From positions 31,848,866 through 31,912,865 of the forward strand of contig OZ023207.1 in assembly GCA_963995525.1 (NCBI GenBank): a stretch of 64,000 nucleotides of DNA. Reading direction: 5' to 3'. Below are positions 17,301 through 45,600 of the stretch, piece after piece. A program made the position numbers and the translations under genes. The notes below the pieces were generated by a model. The model searched no databases, was not told the origin of the DNA, and saw nothing but the letters and a program-made list of their open reading frames with translations. Source of the stretch: Escarpia spicata. Its lineage: Eukaryota; Annelida; Polychaeta; Sabellida; Siboglinidae. Position 1 is the stretch's first letter. Each line of letters starts with the position of its first letter.

Positions 17301-18205
17301 AGTATCTACAACCAGTCAGGGTGTGTGCAGTGTTCATTATTGAGTGTGTTCACCAAGTCCTCCAGTATCTACAACCAGTCAGGGTGTGTGCAGTGTTCAT
17401 TATTGAGTGTGTTCACCAAGTCCTCCAGTATCTACTACCATTCAGGGTGTGTGCAGTGTTCATTATTGAGTGTGTCCACCAATATCTACAACCATTCAGG
17501 GTGTGTGCAATGTTCATTATTGAGTGTGTTCACCAAGTCCTCCAGTATCTACTACCATTCAGGGTGTGTGCAGTGTTCATTATTGAGTGTGTTCACCAAG
17601 TCCACCAATATCTACAACCATTCAGCGTGTGTGCAGTGTTCATTATTGAGTGTGTTCACCAAGTCCTCCAGTATCTACAACCATTCAGGGTGTGTGCAGT
17701 GTTCATTATTGAGTGTGTTCACCAAGTCCTCCAGTATCTACAACCATTCAGGGTGTGTGCAGTGTTCATTATTGAGTGTGTCCACCAAGTCCTCCAGTAT
17801 CTACAACCATTCAGGGTGTGTGCAGTGTTCATTATTGAGTGTGTCCACCAATATCTACAACCATTCAGGGTTTGTGCAGTGTTCATTATTGAGTGTGTCC
17901 ACCAAGTCCTCCAGTATCTACAACCATTCGGGGGGTGTGCAGTGTTCATTATTGAGTGTGTCCACCAAGTCCTCCAGTATCTACAACCATTCAGGGTTTG
18001 TGCAGTGTTCATTATTGAGTGTGTCCACCAAGTCCTCCAGTATCTACAACCATTCGGGGTGTGTGCAGTGTTCATTATTGAGTGTGTCCACCAAGTCCTC
18101 CAGTATCTACTACCATTCAGGGTGTGTGCAGTGTTCATCATTGAGTGTGTCCACCAAGTCCTCCAGTATCTACAACCATTCAGGTTGTGTGCAGTGTTCA
18201 CTGTG
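11379..18205 (+). repeat. 60-bp satellite-like array, 6.8 kb, with 48-bp short units
   Basis: The unit is 'ttattgagtgtgtccaccaa' + 'gtcctccagtatctacaacc' + 'attcagggtgtgtgcagtgt' with few variable sites. Some units lack 12 bp (gtccaccaatatctac, for example near 12240, 12355, 14040). A block of about 1.63 kb starting near 12060 recurs 1,800 bp downstream (30 units) with only scattered differences. Stop-free frames of over 2,250 codons in two + frames, and shorter ones on the - strand, follow from the 60-bp period. There is no initiation context, composition or splice evidence for a protein. Confidence 0.95.
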
Positions 18206-18432: not shown

Positions 18433-18735
18433 GTGGAGCGCAGTGGCTAGAGCTTCAGACTCTCAACTGAGAGAACCTAGGTTCGAATCCTGTGCGGCGG
18501 TGTCGAACCTTGGGCAAGTTCGTTCACACTACATTGCTTCAGTTCACTAAGCTGTATGAATGAGTACCTGGCTATAGACAGTGGTGGATATTTGTGTACG
18601 AATAGTCTGCATATTAATCACAGCATGGCTGAATGTTTCCCAGAGAAGTCGAGATGGTGTTCGATTGAACTGCCAGAGAATAAAACTCTTTGAGCAGTCC
18701 TGACGACTGGATACTGCATCATGTAAAAATTTACC
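18433..18735 (+). mobile_element. SINE family A copy
   Basis: The best preserved head in the window: 'gtggagcgcagtggctagag', B box 'ggttcgaatcc' at about 18481. The body is 'gaatgagtacctggctatag' through 'gtcgagatggtgttcgattg'. A single tail unit (ctctttgagcagtcctgacgactggatactgc in two parts) is followed by 'atcatgtaaaaattt'. Confidence 0.9.
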
Positions 18736-25051: not shown

Positions 25052-25330
25052 GGCAGATGAATTTGTGTCTTTGTGGCATTGATCAAACTGTTCCACTTGA
25101 CTAAGGAAGCATATTGCTCAGCGATATGCAATCCATTCCATTTGTCGAATTATAGCCTAGGGCCTGGTTTGGCAAGATGAAACTTATGACCTATCTTTAA
25201 AACTTCAACTTTTAAGACCTATTCAAGGTGTTACAAATGCAAGTTCCAATTTGCAACTTGATAAGACCAGCAGGGAAATGGTGAAAGAACTGTTGGTCAC
25301 CACAAACACCTGGACACTGTTAAAAAAAGT

Positions 25331-25660
25331 AAAGGTAAGTTCTTACGTAGCGCAGTATCCAGTTCTCAGGATTACTCAAAGCGCTTTACACTTTACTCCC
25401 TGGCAGACCTGTTCAATCGAACACCATCTCGACTTCTCTGGGAAGCATTCAGCCACGTTGCAATTAGTGCGCGAAGATTATTCGTACACAAATATCCACC
25501 ATTATCAATAGCCAGGTACTCATTCATACAGCTGAGTGAACTGAAGCAACGTAAAGTGAATGAACGTGCCCAAAGTTCGACACCGCAGCACATGATTCAA
25601 ACCCGGGTTCTCTCAGTCAAGAGTCCAAAGCTCTAGCCACTGTGCCACTGCACTCCACTG
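25331..25660 (-). mobile_element. SINE family A copy
   Basis: On the - strand, from head near 25660 ('tggagtgcagtggcacagtg'), B box 'gggtttgaatc' near 25600, the family body, and one tail unit ending '...actgcgctacgtaagaactt' at about 25331. The tail has GCGC on both sides of the hairpin (aagcgctttgag...), the ancestral-looking state. Confidence 0.9.
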
Positions 25661-25754
25661 TTACTGTTAGTAGATGTTGTGTCGTGCTGCACACTGGACA
25701 TAGATGGACGGTCAGCGGGGCAGCATGCTTGGACACACCTATGTCCACACTTAC

Positions 25755-25832
25755 TCTGCCAAGCATCGAGAAGCGCCTCTTGATTCTTTTGCGGTAACGA
25801 GTAGCAGCGACCTTCACCTCAACCTCACCCCC
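25755..25832 (-). CDS. Candidate 78-bp ECT2 tail exon, basic
   Basis: On the - strand, a pyrimidine-rich acceptor 'gtccgctttccaccag' precedes 78 nt encoding GGEVEVKVAATRYRKRIKRR followed by FSMLGR. A consensus donor A|GTAAGT follows. It is phase 0 to phase 0, matching the donor of the last confident ECT2 exon and the other candidates. The basic cluster would suit ECT2's basic tail. No direct homology is recognised, so this is a splice-model call. Confidence 0.4.
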
Positions 25833-26620
25833 CTGGTGGAAAGCGGACAGAACGCCAGAACGTAACCAGAACAAGTCAATATAGAGAATGTCACTCGGGC
25901 CTGCGCCATTGTTTAAATCAACGGCCCCCTCATGGAAGCAACTGGGGGTCAATCATTGTTTTATTTATATTGTATTCATGACTGCGAATAGTATAACTGA
26001 TATTGGCGCGGTACCATTTAGAAAAAAAATTTCACCCTGAAATTTTTTTTTTATTAATATGGACTAAGGGAAAATAGTAGGAAATTTAAGTTCTTCCATG
26101 GACAGACTACCATATATCATCTTAGCTGCTAGCAGTTATGTATGGGTCAATAATGGAAGGATCCCTGTTGTGTCATGGTGCCCCACGGTTACCATATACG
26201 TACGAAAACAGATTATCTCTTGAGAAACACAATCACTACAGAATCATCATGACAATATGTATCAGCGCTAATCATATCAATTCTTGTTACTGTAAGATTG
26301 TTTATCCCATAGACAAATGGCGCTTAATCGATCGAAAGTTGTAGGTTGTTGTGTGAAGCCGTTGATCGTCAATTTACAATATGGTTCCTGCACTATTAAT
26401 CCCAGAGTGCTCTAGTTATGTTCCAGTAGCTCTGGCTTAACTAAGAAGTTCCACGAGACTGACTATTGCAGTATCTGAGGGTTATTTAGTGCATGCCTCA
26501 CAGGCTCATAGGCTGCTGATCAAAGCTAGCTTAGTTAAAACTATATTCAAATACATAGGATCAAGTAGTCTAAGATCAAATTTGTTCTGTCAGAGATAAA
26601 CCGACAAGGACACATTTAAT
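25833..26620. other. No gene recognised
   Basis: Single-copy-looking sequence with AT-rich stretches; nothing further supported. Confidence 0.5.
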
Positions 26621-27795
26621 AAGGCCAGACACGGCAGGTAGATAGGATTATTTTTTAATTTGTGCAAACAGTTCAATTTTTTCTGCCCAATGCATGAAAT
26701 GGGTCCTACTGAGTAAAATATATATTGAACTTTTTTTAGCCAGACCCCCCGTTTCCATGGTAACAAACAAAATGGCCACCATTTTGAGCAAATGTTGGCA
26801 AATTTGGAAAAGCTGCAATTTTTTATTGAATCAATATATAGTTATAATTCTTACAAATCCATGTTCTCTAGAGATACTATTGTGAAATGATCAGAGCATT
26901 TTTTGAAATGTTGTTTTTATTTTTTAAATAATTTGTTGGTAAAATACAAAAACATATCTTGTTTTTTTGTAATAAATTTGGCTATATCTTTCAAACTATT
27001 CATGATTTTTTTTAAAGTGTCTGATCGTTGCACACAGTAGAATATGCTGAATGCACCACTGAAAACATTATTTATATAGCATAATTATTCCGAGAGATAT
27101 CCCGTTTCCAAATGCAGAAATTTGAAGAAAAATGTTTTTGAGAAAATGGCTGTCAAAGATTGCATAATGGATTTCATTACATGATATCGACATGCTTGAT
27201 CCATGATTAAAACTCACTTACAGGTATGTAATTGTCATAGAAGTGAACTTTATTGATAGTATGCATACAAAGGTATAATAATCTGGCAAAAAAACATTTT
27301 CAGTATTTTTTTTCAAAAAACACCTTTTCACCTGGGGTGTCTGGCCTTGTTTTCAGTATTGCATTCAGCATATTCTACTGTGTGCAATGATCGGACACTT
27401 TTTTATGAATGAATGAATGAATAGTTTTAAAGATATAGCCATATTTGTTGCCAAAAAACAAGATTTTTTTCATATTTTACCAAATAATTATTTCAAAAAT
27501 AAAAACACATTTCAAAAAATGCTCTGATCATTTCACAATAGAATCTATAGAGAACATTGATTTGCAAGAATTATAACTATATATGGATTCAATAAAAAAT
27601 GGCAGTTTTTCCAAATTTGCCAATATTTTCTCAAAATGGTGGCCATTTTGTTTGTTACCATGGAAACGGGGGTCTGGCTGAAAAAAGTTCAATATACATT
27701 TTACTCAGCAAGACCCATTTCATGCATTGGACAGAAAAATTGAACTGTTTGCACAAATAAAAAAATTATCCTATCTACCTGCCGTGTCTGGCCTT
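26621..27795. mobile_element. Foldback element with 446-bp inverted arms
   Basis: The left arm 26621-27066 starts aaggccagacacggcaggta. Its inverted copy is the right arm 27350-27795, which ends tacctgccgtgtctggcctt. The arms are highly similar but not identical. The 283-bp loop ends near 27354 in 'ggtgtctggcctt', a second terminus-like motif. A simpler element 26621-27355 with short terminal repeats therefore seems to have gained an inverted copy of its left part. There is no coding capacity. The target duplication is not clear (TTAA-like bases flank both ends). Confidence 0.85.
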
Positions 27796-27837
27796 AAAAC
27801 AAAGTAATAAGTACAACTGATGTGCACTACGAAACAT

Positions 27838-28600
27838 GGTGTCGTGGTGACGTGTTTGTGCACTATGCTACTTACTTTGAGGGTGTCGTGGTGACGTGTT
27901 TGTGCACTATGCTACTTACTTTGAGGGTGTCGTGGTGACTTGCTTGTGCACTATGCTACTTACTTTGAGGGTGTCGTGGTGACTTGCTGACACTTACTGT
28001 GAGGGTATCGCGGCAGCGTGTTTGTGCACTACGACACTTACTGTGAGGGTGTCATGGTGACGTGTTTGTGCACTATGACACTTACTGTGAGGGTGTCTTG
28101 GTGATGTGTTTGTGCACTATGACACTTACTGTGAGGGTGTCGTAGTGACGTGTTTGTGCACTATGTCACTTACTGTGAGGGTGTCGTGGTGATGTGTTTG
28201 TGCACTATGTCACTTACTGTGAGGGTGTCGTGGTGATGTGTTTGTGCACTATGACACTTACTGTGAGGGTGTCCTGGTGATGTGTTTGTGCACTATGACA
28301 CTTACTGTGAGGGTGTCGTAGTGACGTGTTTGTGCACTATGTCACTTACTGTGAGGGTGTCGTGGTGATGTGTTTGTACACTGTGACACTTACTGTGAGG
28401 ATGTCATGGTGACGTGTTTGTGCGCTATCACACTTACTGTGAGGGTGTCGCAGCAGCGTGTTTGTACACTATGACACTTACTGTGAGGGTGTCGCAGCAG
28501 CGTGTTTGTACACTATGACACTTACTGTGAGGGTGTCATGGTGACATGTTTGTGCGCTATCACACTTACTGTGAGGGTGTCGCGGCGGCGTGTTTGTGCA
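27838..28600 (-). repeat. 44-bp array repeating a splice donor
   Basis: About 17 units. On the - strand each reads 'gtgcacaaacacgtcaccac' 'gacaccctcacagtaagtgt' 'cata'. It includes CTCACA|GTAAGT, identical to the donor of the candidate exon 28570-28650 that forms its right (upstream) end. The array thus repeats the last ~25 nt of that exon, its donor and the first intron bases. Confidence 0.9.
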
Positions 28601-28650
28601 GGAGTGCCGATGCTCATTTGGTCGACGAGATCGGAGTACGACACAGCACC
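28570..28650 (-). CDS. Candidate 81-bp ECT2 tail exon
   Basis: On the - strand, acceptor 'ccgccacggtag', then 81 nt encoding GAVSYSDLVDQMSIGTPAQT followed by RRRDTLT, then the consensus donor GTAAGT. It is phase 0 at both ends, so it splices in frame to the ECT2 exon 31477-31666. Its 3' end is the source of the 44-bp array, the same behaviour seen at confirmed ECT2 exons. That pattern is indirect support. I recognise no homologue for the peptide itself. Confidence 0.45.
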
Positions 28651-28693
28651 CTACCGTGGCGGGAACATAACAGAGCCAGTGTAACAGGCCGAG

Positions 28694-29076
28694 AGGACCA
28701 TGCCAGAAGGAGGTCCCTTGGAGGACCATGCCAGGAGTAGTTCCCTTCAAGGACCATGTTATAAGTAGGTCCCTTTTATGACCTTGTTATAAGTAGGTCC
28801 CTTTGACGACCATGTTATAAGTAGGTCCCTTCAAGGACCATGTTATAAGCAGGTCCCTTTGAGGACCACATTACAAGTAGGTCCCTAAAGGACCATGTTG
28901 CAAGTAGGTCCTGTTGAGAACCATGCTAGAAGTAGGTCTCTTCGAGGACCATGTTAGAAATAGGTATCTTCAAGGACCATGTCAGAAGTAGGCCCTTTCA
29001 AAGACCATGTTAAAAGAAGGTCCCTTTGAGGACAATGTTGTAAGAAGGTCCCTTCTAGGACCATGTTAGAAGTAGG
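28694..29076 (+). repeat. 28-bp array, diverged
   Basis: About 13 units of 'gaccatgttataagtaggtc' + 'ccttcaag', with considerable divergence between units; older than the neighbouring arrays. Confidence 0.85.
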
Positions 29077-29726
29077 TATTATTTCCAAGATGGTTTGCAC
29101 TAATGACATGTTTAGGCTTAACATTTTAATTGTTATAATACACAGCAGAAACTTAAATGTAATAACTTGTGCAATTATTTGCAGAAACAAATAAGACGAA
29201 ACACAAACTAAACTTAGGAGCCTCCTTCTGGCACGTGTAGCCTGACACAACTGAGGATCAAAGGTCATAGGGTCAGGTGTTGTTGTGCATTGCACTTGCG
29301 AGTGCATGCACGGTACACAGGCCTACTTATAGCATGGCATATTTCTCCGCCCTGTTACACGAGCACAACTACATGTATAAATAAATGTGACGGGTCGCGA
29401 CAATTCAAACCCTAAGGTACAGCATTTCAGTTTTGCAATTTTATCAAGCCATCCATGTGAGTCAGTTTGTTGCAAAGTTACGTGTGGTTGAACTGACCCA
29501 CCTGAAAAATTAAAGTTAGATATATTTGCATGTAAATCATACACCAGAGTAAATGAAGACCGGTACTTTCGCTCCTGTGATGATATTGAGTTTTTTTTTC
29601 AGTTTTGTTAAATGTACCTTACGGTCCAAACCACTGCGGCCTGTCACAAATAATAAAATAAATAAAAGACAGCAAATAAATAAATAAACAGCAAGCAAGT
29701 AAACAAACAGAAGTAAAAGAAAACTC
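29077..29726. other. No gene recognised
   Basis: Single-copy-looking sequence. An A/T-rich simple stretch (aaataaataaa-like) near 29650-29700 precedes the next array. Confidence 0.5.
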
Positions 29727-29998
29727 CTTATTTAGTGCAGTATCTAATCTTGGACTGGTCAATGTGCTCCGTCCCTCTGCTCCACCATCAAACTTATTTA
29801 GTGCAGTATCTAATCTTGGATTGTTCAATGTGCTCCGTCCCTCTGCTCCACCATCAAACTTATTTAGTGCAGTATATAATCTTGGACTGTTCAATGTGCT
29901 CCGTCCCTCTGCTCCACCATCAAACTTATTTAGTGCAGTATATAATCTTGGACTGTTCAATGTGCTCCGTCCCTCTGCTCCACCATCAAACTTATTTA
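29727..29998 (-). repeat. 66-bp array, four units, open on the - strand
   Basis: Four units with period 66 (22 codons). The - strand frame repeats FDGGAEGRSTLNSPR then LDTALNK. It is uninterrupted through all units but has no recognised splice sites or homology. Confidence 0.85.
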
Positions 29999-30694
29999 TT
30001 AATTTATAAACCCAACAGAATCTCCAGACTTACGCTGCAATTAAAACTGGCCTAATGCCCAACCTTAATAAAGTACAACCTGACTAGGGCAACCACCTTC
30101 TTCACAGCCAGAAACCTCTCTCAAAACAGGTGCAGGTAGATAATGAGAATGAAAAGTACTTAATTTTTATATTTGTAATAGTTATTACGCTATAACATTG
30201 TTAGTAGTTGTTACTCTGTTCATACAGAGTGAACTTGTAAACTGTCTCTTGATGATAACTCAATGATCACATTTTGCTTGTCAGTGTGATCTGGTCACTT
30301 TTAAGCAGGTAAAAATAACAATCTCATCCTTGTTTTATATAATCATTGATCACGTTTGGCAGGTACATAATTGTTAGAAAGAATGCATGAGAGTGGTCCC
30401 CGAAGACAGGTTCGACTGGATAGTATTGTCAGTGCAACCATGCGGCTGCTGAAACATCAGTATTCCTGGTGTAGTGACCTGTCGAAACGGAAATTTATGT
30501 TTGACACTGACAATGCTGAAATCTCAAAGCGAGTAATATTATTGACTAATACTGTAATTGGCCACAAAACGATTGTAGATGGTCGGACAGGTAATTACGT
30601 TTTTTTCAGTGAATAGCTATTTGATGTGCACCTAGTTTCCTAGTTGTTTCCAGCGCTCAGCAACATTCTATTAACTGACTGGTCTGTATTATTG
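29999..30694. other. No gene recognised
   Basis: Contains an 81-codon + strand frame (30371-30616) with no domain I recognise and with in-frame stops immediately upstream. I do not call it a gene. Confidence 0.5.
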
Positions 30695-31003
30695 TGGTTA
30701 CAATGTAATGGTCTCATTCAACTAGTTAGCCTTTTTCAGAACATTATCGTCCAAACCAACCTTTATATGCTGGCACTGAGGGTGGTCACTGTCAGGGTGA
30801 TTGTCGTCCTCAGTGGTTCTTTTACGTCCCAAATTGAGACGGGACCGACATTATCGTGATCTCACGAGTCACGAGGAATACACTGTCCACAATGTTTAGG
30901 TTTTTACACCAAATATCATGCCTACCCGGTCCAGGTTTCGAACTCAGAGCGCTGGCATGCCAGGCGGATGTGCTAACCACTACACTAGCCGAGCTCCTGG
31001 TTG
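30695..31003 (-). mobile_element. SINE family B, copy 2
   Basis: On the - strand the head is 'ggctagtgtagtggttagca' near 31000, with B box 'gagttcgaaacc' near 30938. The body contains 'ccctcagtgccagcatataa' and ends 'ccattacattgtaacc' near 30700. It matches 838-1138 along its length and is the better preserved of the two. Confidence 0.85.
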
Positions 31004-31476
31004 GAATCAAAACCAACGAAAACAACAACTGATTCAGTGCACCCAACACTAAACTGCTATTCCCAGAGAAAACACTAACCGCCTGTCCAACAATCCACAC
31101 ACTGTTTTGTTTACCCGATACTGCATTAACCAATCAAATTACTCGCTTTCATATTTAGGCGATTTCAGTACCGAGGATAAATCGACGACTCAAGAAGTTG
31201 ACATGCTGGGATACTGATGTATGCAGCCGCCCTACCGTAATGACAGAATGCATTCAGACAGTTTTCAGATGAACGAAAAAAAAATTTAAAATAAAATTAT
31301 TCTGTACTGTATCTGTCTGAATACATAGTTGGAATGTAAGTATTTGAATAGCGCATATTTGGGACACACAAAAAAATAATTTATTGATAGATTTCATTAT
31401 TTTAGGTGTCCAAACACAGACAGTAATTACGGAATCTGGAGTTGATAGATTACACAAGAAGAGTTGAGGTACTGAC
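31004..31476 (-). other. ECT2 intron after exon 31477-31666
   Basis: AT-rich intron sequence downstream (on the - strand) of the donor CTCACG|GTCAGT at 31477. Nothing else recognised. Confidence 0.6.
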
Positions 31477-31666
31477 CGTGAGTTCTGTGGCGAGGCGCAT
31501 GGCCTTGAAGTCACTGCCAGGGGTGTTGAGGAGGTAGGGGTTGATGGAAGCTGACGACACGTCTCGGTGGCGTGGACTCGCCAGCTGTGTCATGCTCGAC
31601 ATTGCTCGCTTCAACTTACGCGGTGTCTTGTTGAAGGAGAACGCTCGACTCACGCGCTTACTGAAC
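31477..31666 (-). CDS. ECT2: ECT2 exon: basic tail with RAFSFNKTPRK
   Basis: The acceptor is GACCCGTAG|GTTCAG (edge at 31666) and the donor is CTCACG|GTCAGT (edge at 31477). The exon is 190 bp. It completes an arginine, then reads FSKRVSRAFSFNKTPRKLKR and on to ATELT, leaving phase 0. RAFSF.KTP is the ECT2 tail signature, preceding a serine- and proline-rich stretch. Its acceptor is tandemly repeated upstream (29-bp array). Confidence 0.9.
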
Positions 31667-32215
31667 CTACGGGTCACATGACACGCTTACTGAACCTACG
31701 GGTCACATGACACGCTTACTGAACCTATGGGTCACATGACACGCTTACTAAACCTACGGGTCACATGACACGCTTATTGAACCTACGGGTCACATGACAC
31801 ACTTACTGAACCTATGGGTCACATGACACGCTTACTAAACCTACGGGTCACATGACACGCTTACTGAACCACGGGTCACATGACACGCTTACTGAACCAC
31901 GGGTCACATGACACGCTTACTGAACCTACGGGTCACATGATACGCTTACTGAACCTACGGGTCACATGACACGCTTACTGAACCTACGGGTCACATGATA
32001 CGCTTACTGAACCTACGGGTCACATGACACGCTTACTGAACATTTGGATCACATGACACACTTACTGAACCTATGGGTCACATGACGTGTTTACTGAATC
32101 TACGGGTCACATGACACAGTTAAGGTGGCATGACACAGTTACCTACCTGTTGCGCTTCACAAAAATGTAGAACTAAAAAAACTGTGATATTTAAAAAAGA
32201 CTCTTGATGTCAATG

Positions 32216-32251
<36 letters not shown>

Positions 32252-35200
32252 GCTCTAATATTATGCACTACTGAGATATTGGAGCACATACATTACAGTC
32301 TATGAATGCACATGCATATTGCTACCATCAAGAAAACTGACTTTGATGATTTGATGTGGTAACTTGTGAAAATGTGAATAGATTTACATTACATTTATGT
32401 GTGCAGAGAATACTGAGAAACAAATATTACCTGTTAATGAGGTGTCGACTGCCCACTTCACTGGTGTCGATGCTCAGTGTCTGAGAGTCAACCGTTGTTA
32501 GAAGTGTTTCCTGCAAGAAACAAACAGAGCTTCTGAAACAGTGTCTACCTGCAACATGTGCCTATGTACCTTGGCTATAGTTTGGTGTATTCAACATACA
32601 CGGGTGTTTCCCAGTAAGACATTTTGTACTTTTGCACCATTACTAATTCTGGCTCTGGTTGGGTGTGGCACTGGTTGGGTGTGGCTCTGGTTGGGTGTGG
32701 CTCTGGTTGGGTGTGGCTCTGGTTGGGTGTGGCACTTGTTGGGTGTGGCTCTGGTTGGGTGTGGCACTGGTTGGGTGTGGCTCTGGTTGGGTGTGGCTCT
32801 GGTTGGGTGTGGCACTTGTTGGGTGTGGCTCTGGTTGGGTGTGGCTCTGGTTGGGTGTGGCACTTGTTGGGTGTGGCTCTGGTTGGGTGTGGCACTGGAT
32901 GGGTGTGGCACTGGTTGGGTGTGGCACTGGTTGGGTGTGGCACTGGTTGGGTGTGGCACTGGTTGGGTGTGGATCTGGTTGGGTGTGGCTCTGGTTGGGT
33001 GTGGCACTTGTTGGGTGTGGCTCTGGTTGGGTGTGGCTCTGGTTGGGTGTGGCACTGGTTGGGTGTGGCTCTGGTTGGGTGTGGCTCTGGTTGGGTGTGG
33101 CTCTGGTTGGGTGTGGCTCTGGTTGGGTGTGGCTCTGGTTGGGTGTGGCACTGGTTGGGTGTGGCTCTGGTTGGGTGTGGCTCTGGTTGGGTGTGGCTTT
33201 GGTTGGGTGTGGCTCTTGTTGGCTGTGGCACTGGTTGGGTGTGGCTCTGGTTGGGTGTGTCTCTGGTTGGATGTGTCTCTTGTTGGCTGTGGCACTGGTT
33301 GGGTGTGGCTCTGGTTGGGTGTGGCTCTTGTTGGGTGTGGCTCTGGTTGGGTGTGACTCTTGTTGGCTGTGGCACTGGTTGGGTGTGGCTCTGGTTGGGT
33401 GTGGCACTGGTTGGGTGTGGCTCTGGTTGGCTGTGGCACTGGTTGGCTGTGGCACTGGTTGGGTGTGGCTCTGGTTGGGTGTGGCTCTGGTTGGGTGTGA
33501 CTCTTGTTGGCTGTGGCACTGGTTGGGTGTGGCTCTGGTTGGGTGTGGCACTGCTTGGGTGTGGTTCTGGTTGGGTGTGGCACTGGTTGGGTGTGGCTCT
33601 GGTTGGGTGTGGCTCTGGTTGGGTGTGGCTCTGGTTGGGTGTGACTCTTGTTGGCTGTGGCACTGGTTGGTTGTGGCTCTGGTTGGGTGTGGCTCTGGTT
33701 GGGTGTGGCACTGCTTGGGTGTGGCTCTGGTTGGGTGTGGCACTGGTTGGGTGTGGCTCTGGTTGGGTGTGGCACTGGTTGGGTGTGGCTCTGGTTGGGT
33801 GTGGCTCTGGTTGGGTGTGGCTCTGGTTGGGTGTGGCTCTGGTTGGGTGTGGCTCTGGTTGGGTGTGGCACTGCTTGGGTGTGGCTCTGGTTGGGTGTGG
33901 CACTGGTTGGGTGTGGCTCTGGTTGGGTGTGGCACTGGTTGGGTGTGGCTCTGGTTGGGTGTGGCTCTGGTTGGATGTGGCACTGGTTGGGTGTGGCACT
34001 GGTTGGGTGTGGCTCTGGTTGGGTGTGGCTCTGGTTGGGTGTGGCTCTGGCTGGGTGTGACACTGGTTGGGTGTGACTCTTGTTGGCTGTGGCTCTGGTT
34101 GGGTGTGGCACTGGTTGGGTGTGGCTCTGATGGGGTGTGGCACTGGTTGGATGTGGCTCTGGTTGGGTGTGGCACTGGTTGGGTGTGGCTCTGGTTGGGT
34201 GTGGCTCTGGTTGGGTGTGGCACTGGTTGGGTGTGACTCTTGTTGGCTGTGGCACTGGTTGGGTGTGGCACTGGTTGGGTGTGGCACTGGTTTGGTGTGG
34301 CTCTGGTTGGGTGTGGCACTGGTTGGGTGTGGCTCTGGTTGGGTGTGGCACTGGTTGGGTGTGGCTCTGGTTGGGTGTGGCTCTGGTTGGATGTGGCTCT
34401 GGTTGGGTGTGGCACTGGTTGGGTGTGGCACTGGTTGGGTGTGGCTCTGGTTGGGTGTGGCACTGGTTGGGTGTGGCTCTGGTTGGGTGTGGCTCTGGTT
34501 GGGTGTGGCACTGGTTAGGTGTGGCTCTGGTTGGGTGTGGCACTGGTTGGGTGTGGCTCTGGTTGGGTGTGGCTCTGGTTGGGTGTGGCTCTGGTTGGGT
34601 GTGGCACTGGTTGGGTGTGGCTCTGGTTGGATGTGGCTCTGGTTGGGTGTGGCACTGGTTGGGTGTGGCTCTGGTTGGGTGTGGCACTGGTTGGGTGTGG
34701 CTCTGGTTGGGTGTGGCACTGATTGGGTGTGGCTCTGGTTGGGTGTGGCACTGGTTAGGTGTGGCTCTGGTTGGGTGTGGCACTGGTTGGGTGTGGCTCT
34801 GGTTGGGTGTGGCTCTGGTTGGGTGTGGCTCTGGTTGGGTGTGGCACTGGTTGGGTGTGGCTTTGGTTGGGTGTGACTCTGGTTGGGTGTGGCACTGGTT
34901 GGGTGTGGCTCTGGTTGGGTGTGGCTCTGGTTGGGTGTGGCACTGGTTGGGTGTGGCACTGGTTGGGTGTGGCTCTGGTTGGGTGTGGCTCTGGTTGGGT
35001 GTGGCTCTGGTTGGGTGTGGCACTGGTTGGGTGTGGCTCTGGTTGGGTGTGGCACTGGTTGGGTGTGGCTCTGGTTGGGTGTGGCACTGATTGGGTGTGG
35101 CTCTGGTTGGGTGTGGCACTGGTTAGGTGTGGCTCTGGTTGGGTGTGGCACTGGTTGGGTGTGGCACTGGTTAGGTGTGGTTCTGGTTTTACATTGCACA

Positions 35201-37917
35201 ATTTCTGTCTGTTCAAAGTGCTTCACAGTAGTTTTTTCAACAGGTCTTCAATCTAATTTGCGTACAAGATATGTTAAAAATTGTGTCTTCAGTGCTGTTT
35301 TAAATGATGTTGCCTGTTACATGCTGAAGGAAACTATTAATTTTGATGAAATAAACTAGCAAACATGACTATTCTCTGGATGCCGCTACATCGACACTAA
35401 CACCAAACACTGCTTCCCAAAGTATCCGTAACTGTTGAGGTCAATTTGAGTTTTTTACATAAATACATGGACACAAATCCAACGACACTTTACAACATTA
35501 TCACTGTGTAACAGCATAACAAGAAATATTGTAATATGTGAAATAAACAAAACATTAACACTTGCTCTGTAACTTGTATTAGTCTTGGAACAATAAAATA
35601 ATTAATAACATAGAAAAACAATACACTATTGACAAAACTCTCTGCAATTAAGTTGGATTTATTATTGCGTAAAAGTTATTCTTAGATAACAGTGGTGATT
35701 TTCTTCCAACTTGCAAGAGGTGGCATTGTAAACAACTGGTAAGACAACAAAGAAAAGCCTGCCACTTGAAGAAACTTAAGACACTAGTGTATTCTTACCA
35801 TGGCAGTAGTGCATCCTTACTTAGGCACTAGTGCATCCTTACCTTTGTCCACTGCACTAACACGCACATCTGTGAAATGTTTCAACAACATGCCTCTGTA
35901 GTCTCACAAAGGCACCCACTAATTCACACATTTAGTAGTAAAACATGTTTTTCACCCATTAGCCTTAAAAAGGGTATATTAAACTGGTGACATGCCAACT
36001 GAATAAACATAGATAATGGAAATCCATGAGGAGTCAAATATATATGAATAGATCCACCAGTGTGTCCTACATAGGTCCCTGTATTGTAATAATACTAATA
36101 CAATAATTGAGAATAGAATGTTGGCTTGTCAGCCATAGGTGTCAGAATTAATGGAGGCATATCTACCAATAATTCTATGTCAACTCAACAACATTTAAAT
36201 AATGTTATAAGTATATATTTTTTAAACTGGCAGTTCTCGGTCATGTAATCTTGCTAAGAGGGAGACAGAGATACGCAGACTGCCTGAGAGAAAAGTTGGG
36301 CTCACATAGTCAGCTCAATACATGCTGTTGCAGATAGTCTTACTAAGAGAGAGCTGTAAAGTCTGACTGAGTGAAGAAGTTAGACTCGTAGTCAGCTCAA
36401 CACATGCTGTTGCAGATAGTCTTACTAAGAGAGAGCTGTAAAGTCTGACTGAGAGAGAAGTTAGACTCACATAGTCAGCTCGACACATGCTGTTGCAGAT
36501 AGTCTTACTAAGAGAGAGCTGTAAAGTCTAACTGAGTGAAGAAGTTAGACTCACGTAATCAGCACGACACGTGCTGTTGCAGATAGTCTTGCTGAGTGTC
36601 GTGAGGAAGTCTATCTTCCTCACTGCCTCGTCCACCAGGCTGAAGGCATACCTTCGCTCCTCCTCATTCATCTTCTTTGTGATGAGGGCAAACACGTTCT
36701 TACAGTCCACATCTGATGGGACAAACACATTCTTACAGTCGACATCTGATGGGGCAAACACGTTCTTACAGTCGACATCTCATGGGGCAAACACGTTCTT
36801 ACAGTCGACATCTGATGGGGCAAACACGTTCTTACAGTCGACATCTGATGGGGCAAACACGTTCTTACAGTCGACATCTGATGGGGCAAACATATATAAA
36901 AAAGGTTTATATAGTTCTTATATAGAGCAGCATCCAGTCCTCATGACTGCTCAAAACACTTTACTCCCTGGCAGACCTGTTCAATCAAACACCATCTTAA
37001 CTTCTCTGAGAAGCATTCAGCCACGCTGCAATTAATGTGCAAAGACTACTCATACACAAGTATCCACCACTGTCTATAGCCAGGTACTCATTCATACAGG
37101 TGAGTGAACTGCAGCAACGTATAGTGAACAAACTTGCCCAAAGTTTGACACCGCCGCACAGGATTCGAACTCGGTTTCTCTCGGTCGAGAGTCTGAAGCT
37201 CTAGCCACTGCACCGCGGCGCTCCACAAACTTAGCAAAGTGGCAGTGTGCAAGAAAAACACCAATTGACAGAAATACAAACTACCATTGTAAAGTTAAAT
37301 AACTGATGAAATAAGACAAAACCAGCACGCATACTTATTATGGATATCTGTGCTGTCGTTATGTTGTTATCCTGATATTTCATTAACCTTTGTATGCGTT
37401 AACAAATATCCTTATATGAACCTCGCATTATGATCTGTACACCTATGTGATGAGTTGGCAATGTCCTTATATGAACCTGTATATGAACTATGCCACATGA
37501 ACCGAGCACCTACACGAAGAGTAGATAATCTCCTGCATATATGAACTGTGTATGAACACTGACCTGTGAATGTAGCACCTACCTGATGAGTTGACAATGA
37601 CCTGTGAATGTAGCACCTACCTGATGAGTTGACAATGACCTGTGAATGTAGCACCTACCTGATGAGTTGACAATGACCTGTGAATGTAGCACATACCTGA
37701 TGAGTTGACAATGACCTGTGAATGTAGCACCTACCTGATGAGTTGACAATGACCTGTGAATGTAGCACCTACCTGATGAGTTGACAATGTCGACGACACG
37801 TTTTATACTAGACAGCTGCATCACTTCGATGTGCTTGAATGCCTTCTGCGGTGTCTTTGCGCCGTGCGGTGTCGCCGTCTTCGATGAGTTCAGCACCTTC
37901 ACACGTCGCTTACACAA
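31477..37917 (-). CDS. ECT2: ECT2 RhoGEF, C-terminal exons (end of PH domain and basic tail); 5' exons beyond the window
   Basis: Four - strand exons join exactly in phase: 37773-37917, 36555-36712, 32431-32510, 31477-31666. The joined peptide runs LCKRRVKVLNSS...KAFKHIEVMQLSSIKRVVDI, then DVDCKNVFALITKK...LSKTICNSTCRADY, then ETLLTTVDSQTLSIDTSE, then RFSKRVSRAFSFNKTPRKLK. It follows vertebrate ECT2 through the last PH strands, the C-terminal PH helix (TIC.AD) and the hallmark TRAFSFSKTPKR-type basic tail. ECT2 activates RhoA at the central spindle and is required for cytokinesis. BRCT, DH and most PH exons must lie right of 64000, since upstream exons are at higher coordinates. The next upstream intron is therefore over 26 kb and contains the satellite and a LINE. 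Smaller 3' exons are proposed at 28570, 25755, 22933 and 22788. Confidence 0.9.
31651..32121 (-). repeat. 29-bp array repeating the ECT2 splice acceptor
   Basis: About 16 units. On the - strand each unit is 'gttcagtaagcgtgtcatgt' 'gacccgtag', that is, GTAG|GTTCAGTAAGCG. This is the acceptor of exon 31477-31666 plus its first 12-14 nt. Units near 32040-32110 and a few others carry point changes or single-base deletions. Confidence 0.95.
32122..32430 (-). other. ECT2 intron with (AC)n microsatellite
   Basis: Intron sequence. The (AC)n tract occupies about 32219-32249. No other element seen. Confidence 0.7.
32431..32510 (-). CDS. ECT2: ECT2 exon: linker after the PH domain
   Basis: The acceptor is 'ttgtttcttgcag' (edge 32510) and the donor is AACAG|GTAATA (edge 32431). 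The exon is 80 bp, encoding ETLLTTVDSQTLSIDTSEVG then SRHLIN plus two bases. It aligns with the acidic ENLIYTADPESF-type linker of vertebrate ECT2. Unlike its neighbours, neither of its splice sites is tandemly repeated. Confidence 0.88.
32648..35190 (+). repeat. 16-bp G-rich minisatellite, about 159 units
   Basis: The unit is 'ggttgggtgtggctct' or '...gcact', with occasional variants. The regular GG/GGG spacing on the + strand gives potential for two-tetrad G-quadruplexes; the - strand, which is the ECT2 sense strand, is C-rich. Because 16 x 3 is stop-free, all frames are long (up to 883 codons), and none looks like a gene. It lies inside an ECT2 intron. Confidence 0.95.
35191..36229 (-). 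other. ECT2 intron, AT-rich
   Basis: Plain AT-rich intron sequence; no element, exon or repeat recognised. Confidence 0.6.
36230..36600 (-). repeat. ~83-bp array of an ECT2 exon end and its donor
   Basis: About four copies spaced 82-84 bp (marker 'gttgcagatagtctt' at 36327, 36409, 36492, 36576). The copy at 36576 is the true exon end. On the - strand each copy resembles the last ~45 nt of exon 36555-36712 plus TGTGAGTC. The donor is intact in the copies near 36300 and 36470 and broken by a small deletion near 36385. Confidence 0.85.
36555..36712 (-). CDS. ECT2: ECT2 exon: end of PH domain
   Basis: The acceptor CCATCAG|ATGTGGAC has its edge at 36712 and the donor TAC|GTGAGT has its edge at 36555. 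The exon is 158 bp. With one base from the previous exon it reads DVDCKNVFALITKKMNEEER, then RYAFSLVDEAVRKIDFLTTL, then SKTICNSTCRADY. The NVFAL strand and the C-terminal helix with TIC...AD match the ECT2 PH domain. Both its acceptor and its donor lie in tandem arrays. Confidence 0.9.
36699..36896 (-). repeat. 33-bp in-frame array repeating the ECT2 splice acceptor
   Basis: Six units at a strict 33-bp spacing. On the - strand each is 'atgtcgactgtaagaacgtg' 'tttgccccatcag', so each contains a CATCAG|ATGT acceptor plus the first ~20 nt of exon 36555-36712. The period is 11 codons and the frame (DVDCKNVFAPS) stays open through the array. Confidence 0.95.
36913..37224 (-). mobile_element. SINE family A copy inside an ECT2 intron
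   Basis: On the - strand, head 'ggagcgccgcggtgcagtgg' near 37224, B box 'gagttcgaatcc' near 37168, full body, one shortened tail unit ending 'ctctatataagaactatata' at about 36909. It lies between the two ECT2 exons whose boundaries are amplified. Confidence 0.9.
37436..37790 (-). repeat. 38-bp array repeating the ECT2 splice donor
   Basis: Six close copies spaced 38 bp ('acctgatgag' at 37581, 37619, 37657, 37695, 37733, 37771), with degenerate copies back to about 37436. On the - strand each unit is 'gtcaactcatcaggtaggtg' 'ctacattcacaggtcatt'. That is the end of exon 37773-37917, its CAG|GTAGGT donor, and a following acceptor-like 'cattcacag|g'. Confidence 0.95.
37773..37917 (-). CDS. ECT2: ECT2 exon: PH-domain strand KHIEVMQLSSIKRVVDI
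   Basis: The acceptor is 'ctttgttgtag' (edge 37917) and the donor is TCATCAG|GTAGGT (edge 37773). The exon is 145 bp = 48 codons + 1. It encodes LCKRRVKVLNSSKTATPHGA, then KTPQKAFKHIEVMQLSSIKR, then VVDIVNSS. The CKRR start and the FKHIEVMQLSSIKRVVDI strand align with the equivalent segment of vertebrate ECT2. Confidence 0.88.
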
Positions 37918-38084
37918 CTACAACAAAGGTAAGCTCTTATACAAAGGTAAGTAAAGGCAAGTTTTTATGTAAAGGTAAGTACTTAAAGGTAAGTTCCTAT
38001 ATAGAGTAGTACTTATCCACTCCTCATCTTACACACTTGGAAGAAAGGCAAGTTCATATATAGAAGTAAGTTGTTGGTATGGTC

Positions 38085-38290
38085 ATGGCGGCATCCAGTC
38101 CCCAGGAATGTTCACAATACTGCTCACTTCACTCCCTGGCCGACAGGTTTAATTGAACACCAAACTCAATTTCTCAAGGAAGCATTCAGTCAACTATATG
38201 TCAAGAGTGTTTAAAGCCAGGCACTCCTTCATACAGCTGAGTGAACTGAGACAACGTGGAGGGAACTAAATTACCCAAGCTTGTAAATAA
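38085..38290 (-). mobile_element. Decayed, 5'-truncated SINE family A copy
   Basis: Matches the family from tail unit (ggcatccagtccccaggaatg) to mid-body (cagctgagtgaactgagaca) on the - strand, but lacks the tRNA-like head. The flank 37925-38010 carries several 'aaaggtaagt' repeats, a motif also found beside the SINE 3' end at 25331. Confidence 0.7.
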
Positions 38291-38316
38291 GAGTAAGAGA
38301 ATTCAAAAACAGCTTC

Positions 38317-39649
38317 AAAACTAAGAACACTGTGACTAAGATGGAGATCTGCTAAGAGCGGTGTGGCAGTTACACAGAACTAAGAAGAACACTGTGACTA
38401 AGATGGAGATCTGCTAAGAGCGGTGTGGCCGTTACACAGAACTAAGAAGAACACTGTGACTAAGATGGAGATCTGCTAAGAGCGGTGTGGCCGTTACACA
38501 GAACTAAGAAGAACACTGTGACTAAGATGGAGATCTGCTAAGAGCAGTGTGGCAGTTACACAGAACTAAGAAGAACACTGTGACTAAGATGGAGATCTGC
38601 TAAGAGCGGTGTGGCCGTTACACAGAACTAAGAAGAACACTGTGACTAAGATGGAGATCTGCTAAGAGCGGTGTGGCCGTTAACCAGAACTAAGAAGAAC
38701 ACTGTGACTAAGATGGAGATCTGCTAAGAGCGGTGTGGCCGTTACACAGAACTAAGAAGAACACTGTGACTAAGATGGAGATCTGCTAAGAGCAGTGTGG
38801 CCGTTACACAGAACTAAGAAGAACACTGTGACTAAGATGGAGATCTGCTAAGAGCGGTGTGGCCGTTACACAGAACTAAGAAGAACACTGTGACTAAGAT
38901 GGAGATCTGCTAAGAGCGGTGTGGCCGTTACACAGAACTAAGAAGAACACTGTGACTAAGATGGAGATCTGCTAAGAGCGGTGTGGCCGTTACACAGAAC
39001 TAAGAAGAACACTGTGACTAAGATGGAGATCTGCTAAGAGCAGTGTGGCAGTTACACAGAACTAAGAAGAACACTGTGACTAAGATGGAGATCTGCTAAG
39101 AGCGGTGTGGCCGTTACACAGAACTAAGAAGAACACTGTGACTAAGATGGAGATCTGCTAAGAGCGGTGTGGCCGTTAACCAGAACTAAGAAGAACACTG
39201 TGACTAAGATGGAGATCTGCTAAGAGCGGTGTGGCCGTTACACAGAACTAAGAAGAACACTGTGACTAAGATGGAGATCTGCTAAGAGCAGTGTGGCCGT
39301 TACACAGAACTAAGAAGAACACTGTGACTAAGATGGAGATCTGCTAAGAGCGGTGTGGCCGTTACACAGAACTAAGAAGAACACTGTGACTAAGATGGAG
39401 ATCTGCTAAGAGCGGTGTGGCCGTTACACAGAACTAAGAAGAACACTGTGACTAAGATGGAGATCTGCTAAGAGCGGTGTGGCCGTTACACAGAACTAAG
39501 AAGAACACTGTGACTAAGATGGAGATCTGCTAAGAGCAGTGTGGCCGTTACACAGCACTAAGAAGAACACTGTGACTAAGATGGAGATCTGCTAAGAGCG
39601 GTGTGGCCGTTACACAGAACTAAGAAGAACACTGTGACTAACATGGACT
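38317..39649 (+). repeat. 62-bp array, about 21 units, with 496-bp higher-order repeat
   Basis: The unit is 'cagaactaagaagaacactg' 'tgactaagatggagatctgc' 'taagagcggtgtggccgtta' 'ca'. Variant 'gttaaccag' occurs near 38681 and 39177, and 'gcagtgtggcag' near 38546 and 39042. Both are 496 bp apart, which is eight units. The array joins the 72-bp satellite directly near 39645. Confidence 0.95.
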
Positions 39650-42600
39650 GGACACTGCGCTATATAAGAACAGGTCTGCCAGGGAGTAACGTGTATAGCG
39701 CTTTGAGCAGTCCTGAGGACTGGATACTGCGCTATATAAGAACAGGTCTGCCAGGGAGTAACGTGTATAGCACTTTGAGCAGTCCTGAAGACTGGATACT
39801 GCGCTTTATAAGAACAGGTCTGCCAGGGAGTAACATGTATAGCACTTTCAGCAGTCCTGAGGACTGGATACTGCGCTATATAAGAACAGGTCTGCCAAGG
39901 AGTAACGTGTATAGCGCTTTGAGCAGTCCTGAGGACTGGATACTGCGCTATATAAGAACAGGTCTGCCAGGGAGTAACGTGTATAGCACTTTGAGCAGTC
40001 CTGAGGACTGGATACTGCGCTATATAAGAACAGGTCTGCCAGGGAGTAACGTTTAAAGCGCTTTGAGCACTCCTGAGGACTGGATACTGCGCTATATAAG
40101 AACAGGTCTGCCAGGGAGTAACGTGTAAAGCGCTTTGAGCAGTCCTGAGGACTGGATACTGCGCTATATAAGAACAGGTCTGCCAGGGAGTAACGTGTAT
40201 AGCGCTTTGAGCAGTCCTGAAGACTGGATACTGCGCTATATAAGAACAGGTCTGCCAGGGAGTAACGTGTATAGCACTTTGAGCAGTCCTGAAGACTGGA
40301 TACTGCGCTATATAAGAACAGGTCTGCCAGGGAGTAACGTGTATAGCACTTTGAGCAGTCCTGAAGACTGGATACTGCGCTATATAAGAACAGGTCTGCC
40401 AGGGAGTAACGTGTATAGCACTTTGAGCAGTCCTGAAGACTGGATACTGCGCTATATAAGAACAGGTCTGCCAGGGAGTAACGTGTATAGCACTTTGAGC
40501 AGTCCTGAAGACTGGATACTGCGCTATATAAGAACAGGTCTGCCAGGGAGTAACGTGTATAGCACTTTGAGCAGTCCTGAAGACTGGATACTGCGCTATA
40601 TAAGAACAGGTCTGCCAGGGAGTAACGTGTATAGCACTTTGAGCAGTCCTGAAGACTGGATACTGCGCTATATAAGAACAGGTCTGCCAGGGAGTAACGT
40701 GTATAGCACTTTGAGCAGTCCTGAAGACTGGATACTGCGCTATATAAGAACAGGTCTGCCAGGGAGTAACGTGTATAGCACTTTGAGCAGTCCTGAAGAC
40801 TGGATACTGCGCTATATAAGAACGGTCTGCCAGGGAGTAACGTGTATAGCACTTTGAGCAGTCCTGAAGACTGGATACTGCGCTATATAAGAACAGGTCT
40901 GCCAGGGAGTAACGTGTATAGCACTTTGAGCAGTCCTGAAGACTGGATACTGCGCTATATAAGAACAGGTCTGCCAGGGAGTAACGTGTATAGCACTTTG
41001 AGCAGTCCTGAAGACTGGATACTACGCTATATAAGAACAGGTCTGCCAGGGAGTAACGTGTATAGCACTTTGAGCAGTCCTGAGGACTGGACACTGCGCT
41101 ATATAAGAACAGGTCTGCCAGGGAGTAACGTGTATAGCACTTTGAGCAGTCCTGAAGACTGGATACTGCGCTATATAAGAACAGGTCTGCCAGGGAGTAA
41201 CATGTATAGCACTTTGAGCAGTCCTGAGGACTGGACACTGCGCTATATAAGAACAGGTCTGCCAGGGAGTAACGTGTATAGCACTTTGAGCAGTCCTGAG
41301 GACTGGACACTGCGCTATATAAGAACAGGTCTGCCAGGGAGTAACGTGTATAGCACTTTGAGCAGTCCTGAGGACTGGATACTGCGCTATATAAGAACAG
41401 GTCTGCCAGGGGGTAACATGTATAGCACTTTGAGCAGTCCTGAGGACTGGACACTACGCTATATAAGAACAGGTCTGCCAGGGAGTAACATGTATAGCAC
41501 TTTGAGCAGTCCTGAAGACTGGATACTACGCTATATAAGAACAGGTCTGCCAGGGAGTAACATGTATAGCACTTTGAGCAGTCCTGAGGACTGGATACAG
41601 CGCTATATAAGAACAGGTCTGCCAGGGAGTAACATGTATAGCACTTTGAGCAGTCCTGAGGACTGGATACTGCGCTATATAAGAACAGGTCTGCCAGGGA
41701 GTAACGTGTATAGCACTTTGAGCAGTCCTGAGGACTGGATACTGCGCTATATAAGAACAGGTCTGCCAGGGAGTAACGTGTATAGCACTTTGAGCAGTCC
41801 TGAAGACTGGATACTGCGCTATATAAGAACAGGTCTGCCAGGGAGTAACATGTATAGCACTTTGAGCAGTCCTGAAGACTGGATACTGCGCTATATAAGA
41901 ACAGGTCTGCCAGGGAGTAACATGTATAGCACTTTGAGCAGTCCTGAGGACTGGACACTACGCTATATAAGAACAGGTCTGCCAGGGAGTAACATGTATA
42001 GCACTTTGAGCAGTCCGGAGGACTGGATACTGCGCTATATAAGAACAGGTCTGCCAGGGAGTAACATGTATAGCACTTTGAGCAGTCCTGAAGACTGGAC
42101 ACTGCGCTATATAAGAACAGGTCTGCCAGGGAGTAACATGTATAGCACTTTGAGCAGTCCTGAGGACTGGATACTGCGCTATATAAGAACAGGTCTGCCA
42201 GGGAGTAACATGTAAAGCACTTCGAGCAGTACTGAGGACTGGACACTGCGCTATATAAGAACAGGTCTGCCAGGGAGTAACATGTAAAACACTTTGAGCA
42301 GTCCTGAAGACTGGATACTGCGCTATATAAGAACAGGTCTGCCAGGGAGTAACATGTATAGCACTTTGAGCAGTCCTGAAGACTGGATACTGCGCTATAT
42401 AAGAACAGGTCTGCCAGGGAGTAACGTGTATAGCACTTTGAGCAGTCCTGAAGACTGGATACTGCGCTATATAAGAACAGGTCTGCCAGGGAGTAACGTG
42501 TATAGCACTTTGAGCAGTCCTGAAGACTGGATACTGCGCTATATAAGAACAGGTCTGCCAGGGAGTAACGTGTATAGCACTTTGAGCAGTCCTGAAGACT

Positions 42601-45600
42601 GGATACTGCGCTATAATAGAACAGGTCTGCCAGGGAGTAACGTGTATAGCACTTTGAGCAGTCCTGAAGACTGGATACTGCGCTATATAAGAACAGGTCT
42701 GCCAGGGAGTAACGTGTATAGCACTTTGAGCAGTCCTGAGGACTGGATACTGCGCTATATAAGAACAGGTCTGCCAGGGAGTAACATGTATAGCACTTTG
42801 AGCAGTCCTGAGGACTGGACACTACGCTATATAAGAACAGGTCTGCCAGGGAGTAACATGTATAGCACTTTGAGCAGTCCTGAAGACTGGATACTACGCT
42901 ATATAAGAACAGGTCTGCCAGGGAGTAACATGTATAGCACTTTGAGCAGTCCTGAGGACTGGATACTGCGCTATATAAGAACAGGTCTGCCAGGGAGTAA
43001 CATGTATAGCACTTTGAGCAGTCCTGAGGACTGGATACTGCGCTATATAAGAACAGGTCTGCCAGGGAGTAACATGTAAAGCACTTCGAGCAGTACTGAG
43101 GACTGGACACTGCGCTATATAAGAACAGGTCTGCCAGGGAGTAACATGTAAAGCACTTTGAGCAGTCCTGAAGACTGGATACTGCGCTATATAAGAACAG
43201 GTCTGCCAGGGAGTAACATGTATAGCACTTTGAGCAGTCCTGAAGACTGGATACTGCGCTATATAAGAACAGGTCTGCCAGGGAGTAACGTGTATAGCAC
43301 TTTGAGCAGTCCTGAAGACTGGATACTGCGCTATATAAGAACAGGTCTGCCAGGGAGTAACGTGTATAGCACTTTGAGCAGTCCTGAAGACTGGATACTG
43401 CGCTATATAAGAACAGGTCTGCCAGGGAGTAACATGTATAGCACTTTGAGCAGTCCTGAGGACTGGACACTACGCTATATAAGAACAGGTCTGCCAGGGA
43501 GTAACATGTATAGCACTTTGAGCAGTCCTGAAGACTGGATACTACGCTATATAAGAACAGGTCTGCCAGGGAGTAACATGTATAGCACTTTGAGCAGTCC
43601 TGAGGACTGGATACTGCGTTATATAAGAACAGGTCTGCCAGGGAGTAACATGTATAGCACTTTGAGCAGTCCTGAGGACTGGATACTGCGCTATATAAGA
43701 ACAGGTCTGCCAGGGAGTAACATGTATAGCACTTTGAGCAGTCCTGAGGACTGGATACTGCGCTATATAAGAACAGGTCTGCCAGGGAGTAACGTGTATA
43801 GCACTTTGAGCAGTCCTGAAGACTGGATACTGCGCTATATAAGAACAGGTCTGCCAGGGAGTAACATGTATAGCACTTTGAGCAGTCCTGAAGACTGGAT
43901 ACTGCGCTATATAAGAACAGGTCTGCCAGGGAGTAACATGTATAGCACTTTGAGCAGTCCTGAGGACTGGACACTGCGCTATATAAGAACAGGTCTGCCA
44001 GGGAGTAACGTGTATAGCACTTTGAGCAGTCCTGAGGACTGGATACTGCGCTATATAAGAACAGGTCTGCCAGGGAGTAACATGTAAAGCACTTCGAGCA
44101 GTACTGAGGACTGGACACTGCGCTATATAAGAACAGGTCTGCCAGGGAGTAACATGTAAAGCACTTTGAGCAGTCCTGAAGACTGGATACTGCGCTATAT
44201 AAGAACAGGTCTGCCAGGGAGTAACATGTATAGCACTTTGAGCAGTCCTGAGGACTGGACACTGCGCTATATAAGAACAGGTCTGCCAGGGAGTAACATG
44301 TATAGCACTTTGAGCAGTCCTGAAGACTGGATACTGCGCTATATAAGAACAGGTCTGCCAGGGAGTAACATGTATAGCACTTTGAGCAGTCCTGAGGACT
44401 GGACACTGCGCTATATAAGAACAGGTCTGCCAGGGAGTAACATGTAAAGCACTTCGAGCAGTACTGAGGACTGGACACTGCGCTATATAAGAACAGGTCT
44501 GCCAGGGAGTAACATGTAAAGCACTTTGAGCAGTCCTGAAGACTGGATACTGCGCTATATAAGAACAGGTCTGCCAGGGAGTAACATGTATAGCACTTTG
44601 AGCAGTCCTGAGGACTGGACACTGCGCTATATAAGAACAGGTCTGCCAGGGAGTAACATGTATAGCACTTTGAGCAGTCCTGAAGACTGGATACTGCGCT
44701 ATATAAGAACAGGTCTGCCAGGGAGTAACGTGTATAGCACTTTGAGCAGTCCTGAAGACTGGATACTGCGCTATATAAGAACAGGTCTGCCAGGGAGTAA
44801 CGTGTATAGCACTTTGAGCAGTCCTGAAGACTGGATACTGCGCTATATAAGAACAGGTCTGCCAGGGAGTAACGTGTATAGCACTTTGAGCAGTCCTGAG
44901 GACTGGATACTGCGCTATATAAGAACAGGTCTGCCAGGGAGTAACATATATAGCACTTTGAGCAGTCCTGAGGACTGGACACTACGCTATATAAGAACAG
45001 GTCTGCCAGGGAGTAACATGTATAGCACTTTGAGCAGTCCTGAAGACTGGATACTACGCTATATAAGAACAGGTCTGCCAGGGAATAACATGTATAGCAC
45101 TTTGAGCAGTCCGGAGGACTGGATACTGCGCTATATAAGAACAGGTCTGCCAGGGAGTAACATGTATAGCACTTTGAGCAGTCCTGAAGACTGGACACTG
45201 CGCTATATAAGAACAGGTCTGCCAGGGAGTAACATGTATAGCACTTTGAGCAGTCCTGAGGACTGGATACTGCGCTATATAAGAACAGGTCTGCCAGGGA
45301 GTAACATGTAAAGCACTTCGAGCAGTACTGAGGACTGGACACTGCGCTATATAAGAACAGGTCTGCCAAGGAGTAACATGTAAAGCACTTTGAGCAGTCC
45401 TGAAGACTGGATACTGCGCTATATAAGAACAGGTCTGCCAGGGAGTAACATGTATAGCACTTTGAGCAGTCCTGAAGACTGGATACTGCGCTATATAAGA
45501 ACAGGTCTGCCAGGGAGTAACGTGTATAGCACTTTGAGCAGTCCTGAAGACTGGATACTGCGCTATATAAGAACAGGTCTGCCAGGGAGTAACGTGTATA

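Follow-up and report, generated by a model that had tools for sequence, protein, structure and literature searches.

Minisatellites that straddle splice junctions of ECT2 and of sampled genes in the annelid Escarpia spicata

Tandem repeats spanning exon–intron boundaries have been described as the "mirages" of lancelet genes, among them Adh3, the globins BflGb6 and BflGb9, troponin C, and PGBD5 (PMC3087553; PMC3902484). In the available parts of these reports, mirages are proposed as creators of introns (PMC3087553; PMC3902484), and they appear not to disturb splicing, which is how the authors read their reverse transcription PCR (PMC3087553). Length instability, between haplotypes or somatic, is a further trait of the lancelet type, as reported for Adh3. 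Internal tandem repeats in genes of human segmental duplications form a related case, as the accessible text presents them, with minisatellite expansions sometimes located at exon–intron boundaries and altering gene structure (PMC2812944). Intronic minisatellites are also mentioned for earthworm metallothionein in the available part of PMC12783039. We focus here on a 64,000-nucleotide stretch of the siboglinid annelid Escarpia spicata (assembly GCA_963995525.1, contig OZ023207.1, forward-strand positions 31,848,866 to 31,912,865; hereafter the window), in which minisatellites cover half of the examined splice junctions of the gene ECT2, and on the frequency of such arrays at 272 junctions sampled from the same genome, where they occur in roughly three- to fourfold excess.

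The annelid arrays share with the lancelet mirages, as far as these are characterized in the text available, a repeat that spans the exon–intron boundary and a unit composed of both exon and intron sequence. Many copies, not all, carry AG/GT signals (the neighbouring copy does so in 17 of 20 arrays), and either the donor or the acceptor side may be duplicated (seven donors and eight acceptors in the sample; two of each in ECT2). Judged by these sequence features, the structure is a lancelet-type mirage and thereby of a kind already known; what is new is its occurrence in a second phylum and an estimate of its frequency from sampled junctions. A lancelet source of the DNA was considered and rejected on the mitochondrial COX1, for which the best named match among the 120 listed is a Siboglinidae cluster (86%), with mostly annelids and then gastropods ranking next; an environmental protein (P0001) matches at 94% and, judged from its sequence, seems to have been translated with a different code. 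Unlike the lancelet cases, the annelid arrays were surveyed at 272 sampled junctions, where they exceed expectation, and they are known from the sequence of a single assembly. The human internal tandem repeats differ in another respect, since about half of them lie in coding sequence according to the portion of PMC2812944 available, whereas the arrays described here run on into introns, their exonic part amounting to roughly a unit at most. Within the open-licence literature searched, the accessible portions contained no report of such arrays at annelid splice junctions and no comparable junction count.

Tandem arrays were called across the window with Tandem Repeats Finder (TRF) and compared with exons of ECT2 recognized by homology (Table 1). 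Splicing of exons A–D yields one open frame of 191 residues that matches human ECT2 (PDB 6L30) with E=7.2e-23 over residues 3–156, an alignment that takes in exons A, B, and C and approximately the first 29 residues of D. Four of the eight junctions (two donors and two acceptors) lie within arrays, each of which straddles a single junction and contains the splice site plus 12–36 bp of exon; the acceptor of A, both junctions of C, and the donor of D fall in no TRF array. In the 38-bp array, equal-scoring donors are kept in all six full copies. An earlier note on this DNA had proposed these exon coordinates and the placement of four arrays with units of 38, 33, 83, and 29 bp over the splice sites, and both TRF and the 6L30 homology agree with it. 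Its fifth array (44 bp) does likewise for candidate exon E, an exon placed without homology support. A search for the RhoGEF family assigned no exon to the window or to the DNA immediately upstream of ECT2, and the analysis therefore covers the 3′ portion of the gene alone. Elsewhere in the genome, a 39-bp array at locus L002 (1500–1664) shares 71% similarity with a segment of the region holding the 38-bp array of ECT2, and the two are probably unrelated.

Table 1. Exons of ECT2 in the window and the minisatellites that cover their junctions
Feature	Position	Strand	Basis and relation
ECT2 exon A	37773..37917	-	Open frame with alignment to PDB 6L30 (human ECT2); donor within array
38-bp minisatellite, 6.2 copies	37556..37789	-	TRF; covers exon A donor; 17 bp exonic
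ECT2 exon B	36555..36712	-	Open frame, aligned to 6L30; acceptor and donor each within an array
33-bp minisatellite, 6.4 copies	36680..36892	-	TRF; covers exon B acceptor; 33 bp exonic
83-bp minisatellite, 3.8 copies	36280..36590	-	TRF; covers exon B donor; 36 bp exonic
ECT2 exon C	32431..32510	-	Open frame, aligned to 6L30; both junctions outside arrays
ECT2 exon D	31477..31666	-	SKRVSRAFSF..., compare human SKKVTRAFSF; acceptor within array
29-bp minisatellite, 16 copies	31655..32117	-	TRF; covers exon D acceptor; 12 bp exonic
Candidate exon E of ECT2 (27 codons; phase 0 on either side)	28570..28650	-	Open; AG before, GTAAGT after; no homology support
44-bp minisatellite, 17.6 copies	27838..28600	-	TRF; covers candidate exon E donor; 31 bp exonic

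To place ECT2 in the context of the genome (1.06 Gb in 1097 contigs), exons were located by family searches for protein kinases, chaperonins, and kinesins, and short stretches around them were run through TRF. The exons used comprised 91 of 137 kinase matches (picked by hand, with mainly intronless-looking matches omitted), 43 of 46 chaperonin matches, and 22 of 124 kinesin matches, for a total of 156 exons with 312 sides. A side was considered usable when a positive-scoring splice site lay at most 30 bp from the homology edge, which kept 272 sides and dropped 40, the latter including the donor of L107, a clear straddling case. A straddling event was scored when an array entered the exon by 4 bp or more, in a count with a built-in limit on the overhang. 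By this definition, 15 of the 272 junctions are straddled (5.5%, 95% interval 3.1–8.9%), or about one in eighteen, with 11 events among 152 sides of kinase exons, 2 among 78 for the chaperonins, and 2 among 42 for the kinesins, and the 15 cases are spread over eight different large contigs. Given how densely array ends occur in the flanking introns, 5.0 events are expected, which corresponds to a rate ratio of 3.0 (p=5e-4); for units of at least 25 bp the expectation is 3.8 and the ratio 4.0 (p=7e-5). Over seven settings the ratio ranges from 2.9 to 4.6 and p from 0.002 to 0.00001, with 3.3–5.1 events expected in the five settings that keep all 15; the remaining two yielded 13 events where 3.3 were expected and 10 where 2.2 were expected. 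In a separate kinase count that used another control, 9 of 136 were straddled where 2.7 would be expected. One sampled kinase exon, at L049, is flanked by two arrays, of which one with a 106-bp unit ends 4 bp inside the acceptor and one with a 181-bp unit covers the donor.

The earlier note envisaged a local process that duplicates across splice junctions and called for a survey of arrays against junctions across the genome. The enrichment was indeed found, in a sample of 272 junctions set against nearby intronic array density. It extends the excess over local array density to the sampled genes, so that any process acting at junctions is not local to ECT2. Within ECT2 itself, the expectation computed from all non-exonic points of 25100–38300 is 0.22 of the eight junctions, and the probability of four or more is 3e-5, a figure that is post hoc (the gene was chosen by the earlier reader) and assumes independence of the junctions. 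With the genome-sample rate as the baseline, the corresponding probability for four or more of eight is 5e-4, and the cluster need not surprise, given that the gene was picked genome-wide as striking.

Several observations weigh against an excess confined to junctions and of the size given. Ten array ends lie 4–60 bp outside exons where about five would be expected by a hand calculation with the same densities, so that ends are about twice background there, and the excess may in part reflect a general abundance of arrays close to exons rather than one confined to junctions. The chaperonin and kinesin sets, taken alone, contribute few events. Individual cases are weak as well: L053 is a weak donor with two copies, the acceptor array of L049 enters the exon by only 4 bp and has a poor site in its next copy, and the AG is lost in the next copy of L039. 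In addition, the families and exons were chosen by the analyst and constitute a non-random sample, and splice sites close to the homology edges were assigned with a home-made score.

We consider it likely that the junction arrays are tolerated tandem duplications whose copies are kept alike by array turnover and which are spliced at the exon-proximal copy. A short local tandem duplication with a unit straddling the junction would found the minisatellite; it would be tolerated since an intact exon edge, splice site included, stays in place, whereas a duplication inside the exon usually would not be. Further copies would then expand into the intron, where ordinary array turnover could keep them alike and thereby leave decoy splice sites intact without selection, and splicing is presumed to pick the copy next to the exon. 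Use of that copy, the founding and turnover steps, and the cause of the excess are inferred from genomic sequence rather than from RNA. A straddling founder combined with selection on exons predicts an absence of array ends deep in exons, and none was found at least 50 bp inside kinase or chaperonin exons (binned up to 250 bp and counted without an upper limit on the overhang).

Maintenance of the copies by selection, as redundant or regulatory splice sites, was one of the readings offered by the earlier note, and intact sites in most neighbouring copies would suit it. A usable-looking site is missing from the neighbouring copy only in the arrays of L039 and L134 and the acceptor array of L049 (that of L134 was read in the wrong register in this count), and the two nearest decoys in the 33-bp acceptor array of exon B are in frame, adding 11 or 22 residues. 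Sites in neighbouring copies are, however, also expected of homogeneous arrays, and the pattern of variation does not follow the splice sites. Wraparound alignment of non-anchor copies in 16 of the 20 arrays (the ones holding at least about three copies), which replaced an earlier indel-free comparison (core 15%, intron 11%, and exon 7% variation), yielded 4.7% variation in the splice core (26/555) against 2.8% in the intronic part (68/2441) and 3.2% in the exon-derived part (73/2306). The decoy splice core is thus unprotected and, if anything, more variable than intronic sequence of the unit (p=0.03). Nor is there a frame bias among the 20 unit lengths, of which 8, 7, and 5 leave remainders of 0, 1, and 2 on division by three, with 6.7 multiples of three expected. 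The next one or two donor copies of exon A break the frame, the third keeping it, and the next one or two acceptor copies of exon D break it as well, either leading to an early stop. Selection of this kind is accordingly very improbable. We regard as equally improbable the birth of introns by tandem duplication of AGGT-containing exon segments, which the earlier note had brought up and which has been proposed for the globins of lancelets (PMC3087553) and for certain duplicated genes in humans (PMC2812944). The Rogers model of intron gain from AG/GT proto-splice sites, as cited in the accessible text of PMC3087553, likewise involves tandem copies with splice signals; in contrast, no single array spans donor to acceptor in the A–B intron of ECT2. 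The 38-bp array at one end of this intron and the 33-bp array at the other are unrelated, so that a single array did not create it, and the idea is left unsupported for this intron. A donor and an acceptor within one unit family were looked for in ECT2, the gene tested, and were not found, every array there straddling one junction.

Coincidence offers a simpler account, in which arrays arise at random in a minisatellite-rich genome and the survivors are those that leave an exon edge intact, with no true excess at junctions. Tandem arrays make up 64% of the window (9% of the sampled loci), ECT2 was selected for being striking, the counts exceed this null only three- to fourfold, and two of the three families show no clear excess on their own. 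Against it stand the 15 events in the five settings that retain them all, the p values across the seven settings, and the separate kinase count, and we judge it unlikely, though deserving of some weight. An assembly or collapse artefact might also be suspected, as tandem arrays are prone to misassembly; the distribution of the cases over large contigs, the mostly diverged copies, and the still open exons beside them make this a very slight possibility.

If the junction arrays are tolerated duplications, their excess may stem from a mutational bias or higher founding rate near exon edges, or from longer persistence of arrays in which one copy is pinned by selection, as such a copy could re-homogenize the others. 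It is conceivable, if somewhat doubtful, that some animal genomes harbour a mutational process, for instance one tied to transcription or splicing at exon edges, with a preference for founding junction-spanning duplications, several percent of splice junctions then residing in hypervariable minisatellites that would supply alternative splice sites and length polymorphism. Should several percent of junctions sit in unstable arrays, gene structure may vary between individuals while the protein is unchanged, and automated annotation could set the exon borders wrongly at such places. The lancelet "mirage" observation becomes a countable phenomenon that can be compared across phyla, and the arrays provide material for asking how the spliceosome chooses one site among near-identical neighbours.

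The earlier note further held that DYNLT2B, in the same window, shows no such arrays. A motif search picked out three open frames, two of which (4564–4674 and 6088–6192, plus strand) we take to be DYNLT2B. No TRF array overlaps these two putative frames, the nearest starting at 6237, and the statement thus holds as far as these two frames.

The window contains further repeats. Very large arrays include a 63-bp unit in 107 copies and a 32-bp unit in 79 copies (11530–18200 and 32650–35188). A 72-bp satellite of 269 copies occupies 19 kb (39645–59078) and resumes at 63159–64000, the interruption containing a 1043-residue open frame of a putative non-long-terminal-repeat (non-LTR) retrotransposon (59220–62348, minus strand). 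The reverse-transcriptase motif of this frame was recognized by eye rather than by a family search, and the arrangement looks like insertion of a non-LTR retrotransposon into the 72-bp array. A dispersed element of about 300 bp, resembling by eye a short interspersed element (SINE), has four long copies at 36893–37240, 25338–25658, 18440–18717, and 8291–8572, and it was matched in 16 other sampled loci (excluding L001, which is part of the window). Part of this SINE-like element resembles the 72-bp satellite unit, and the satellite may be derived from it.

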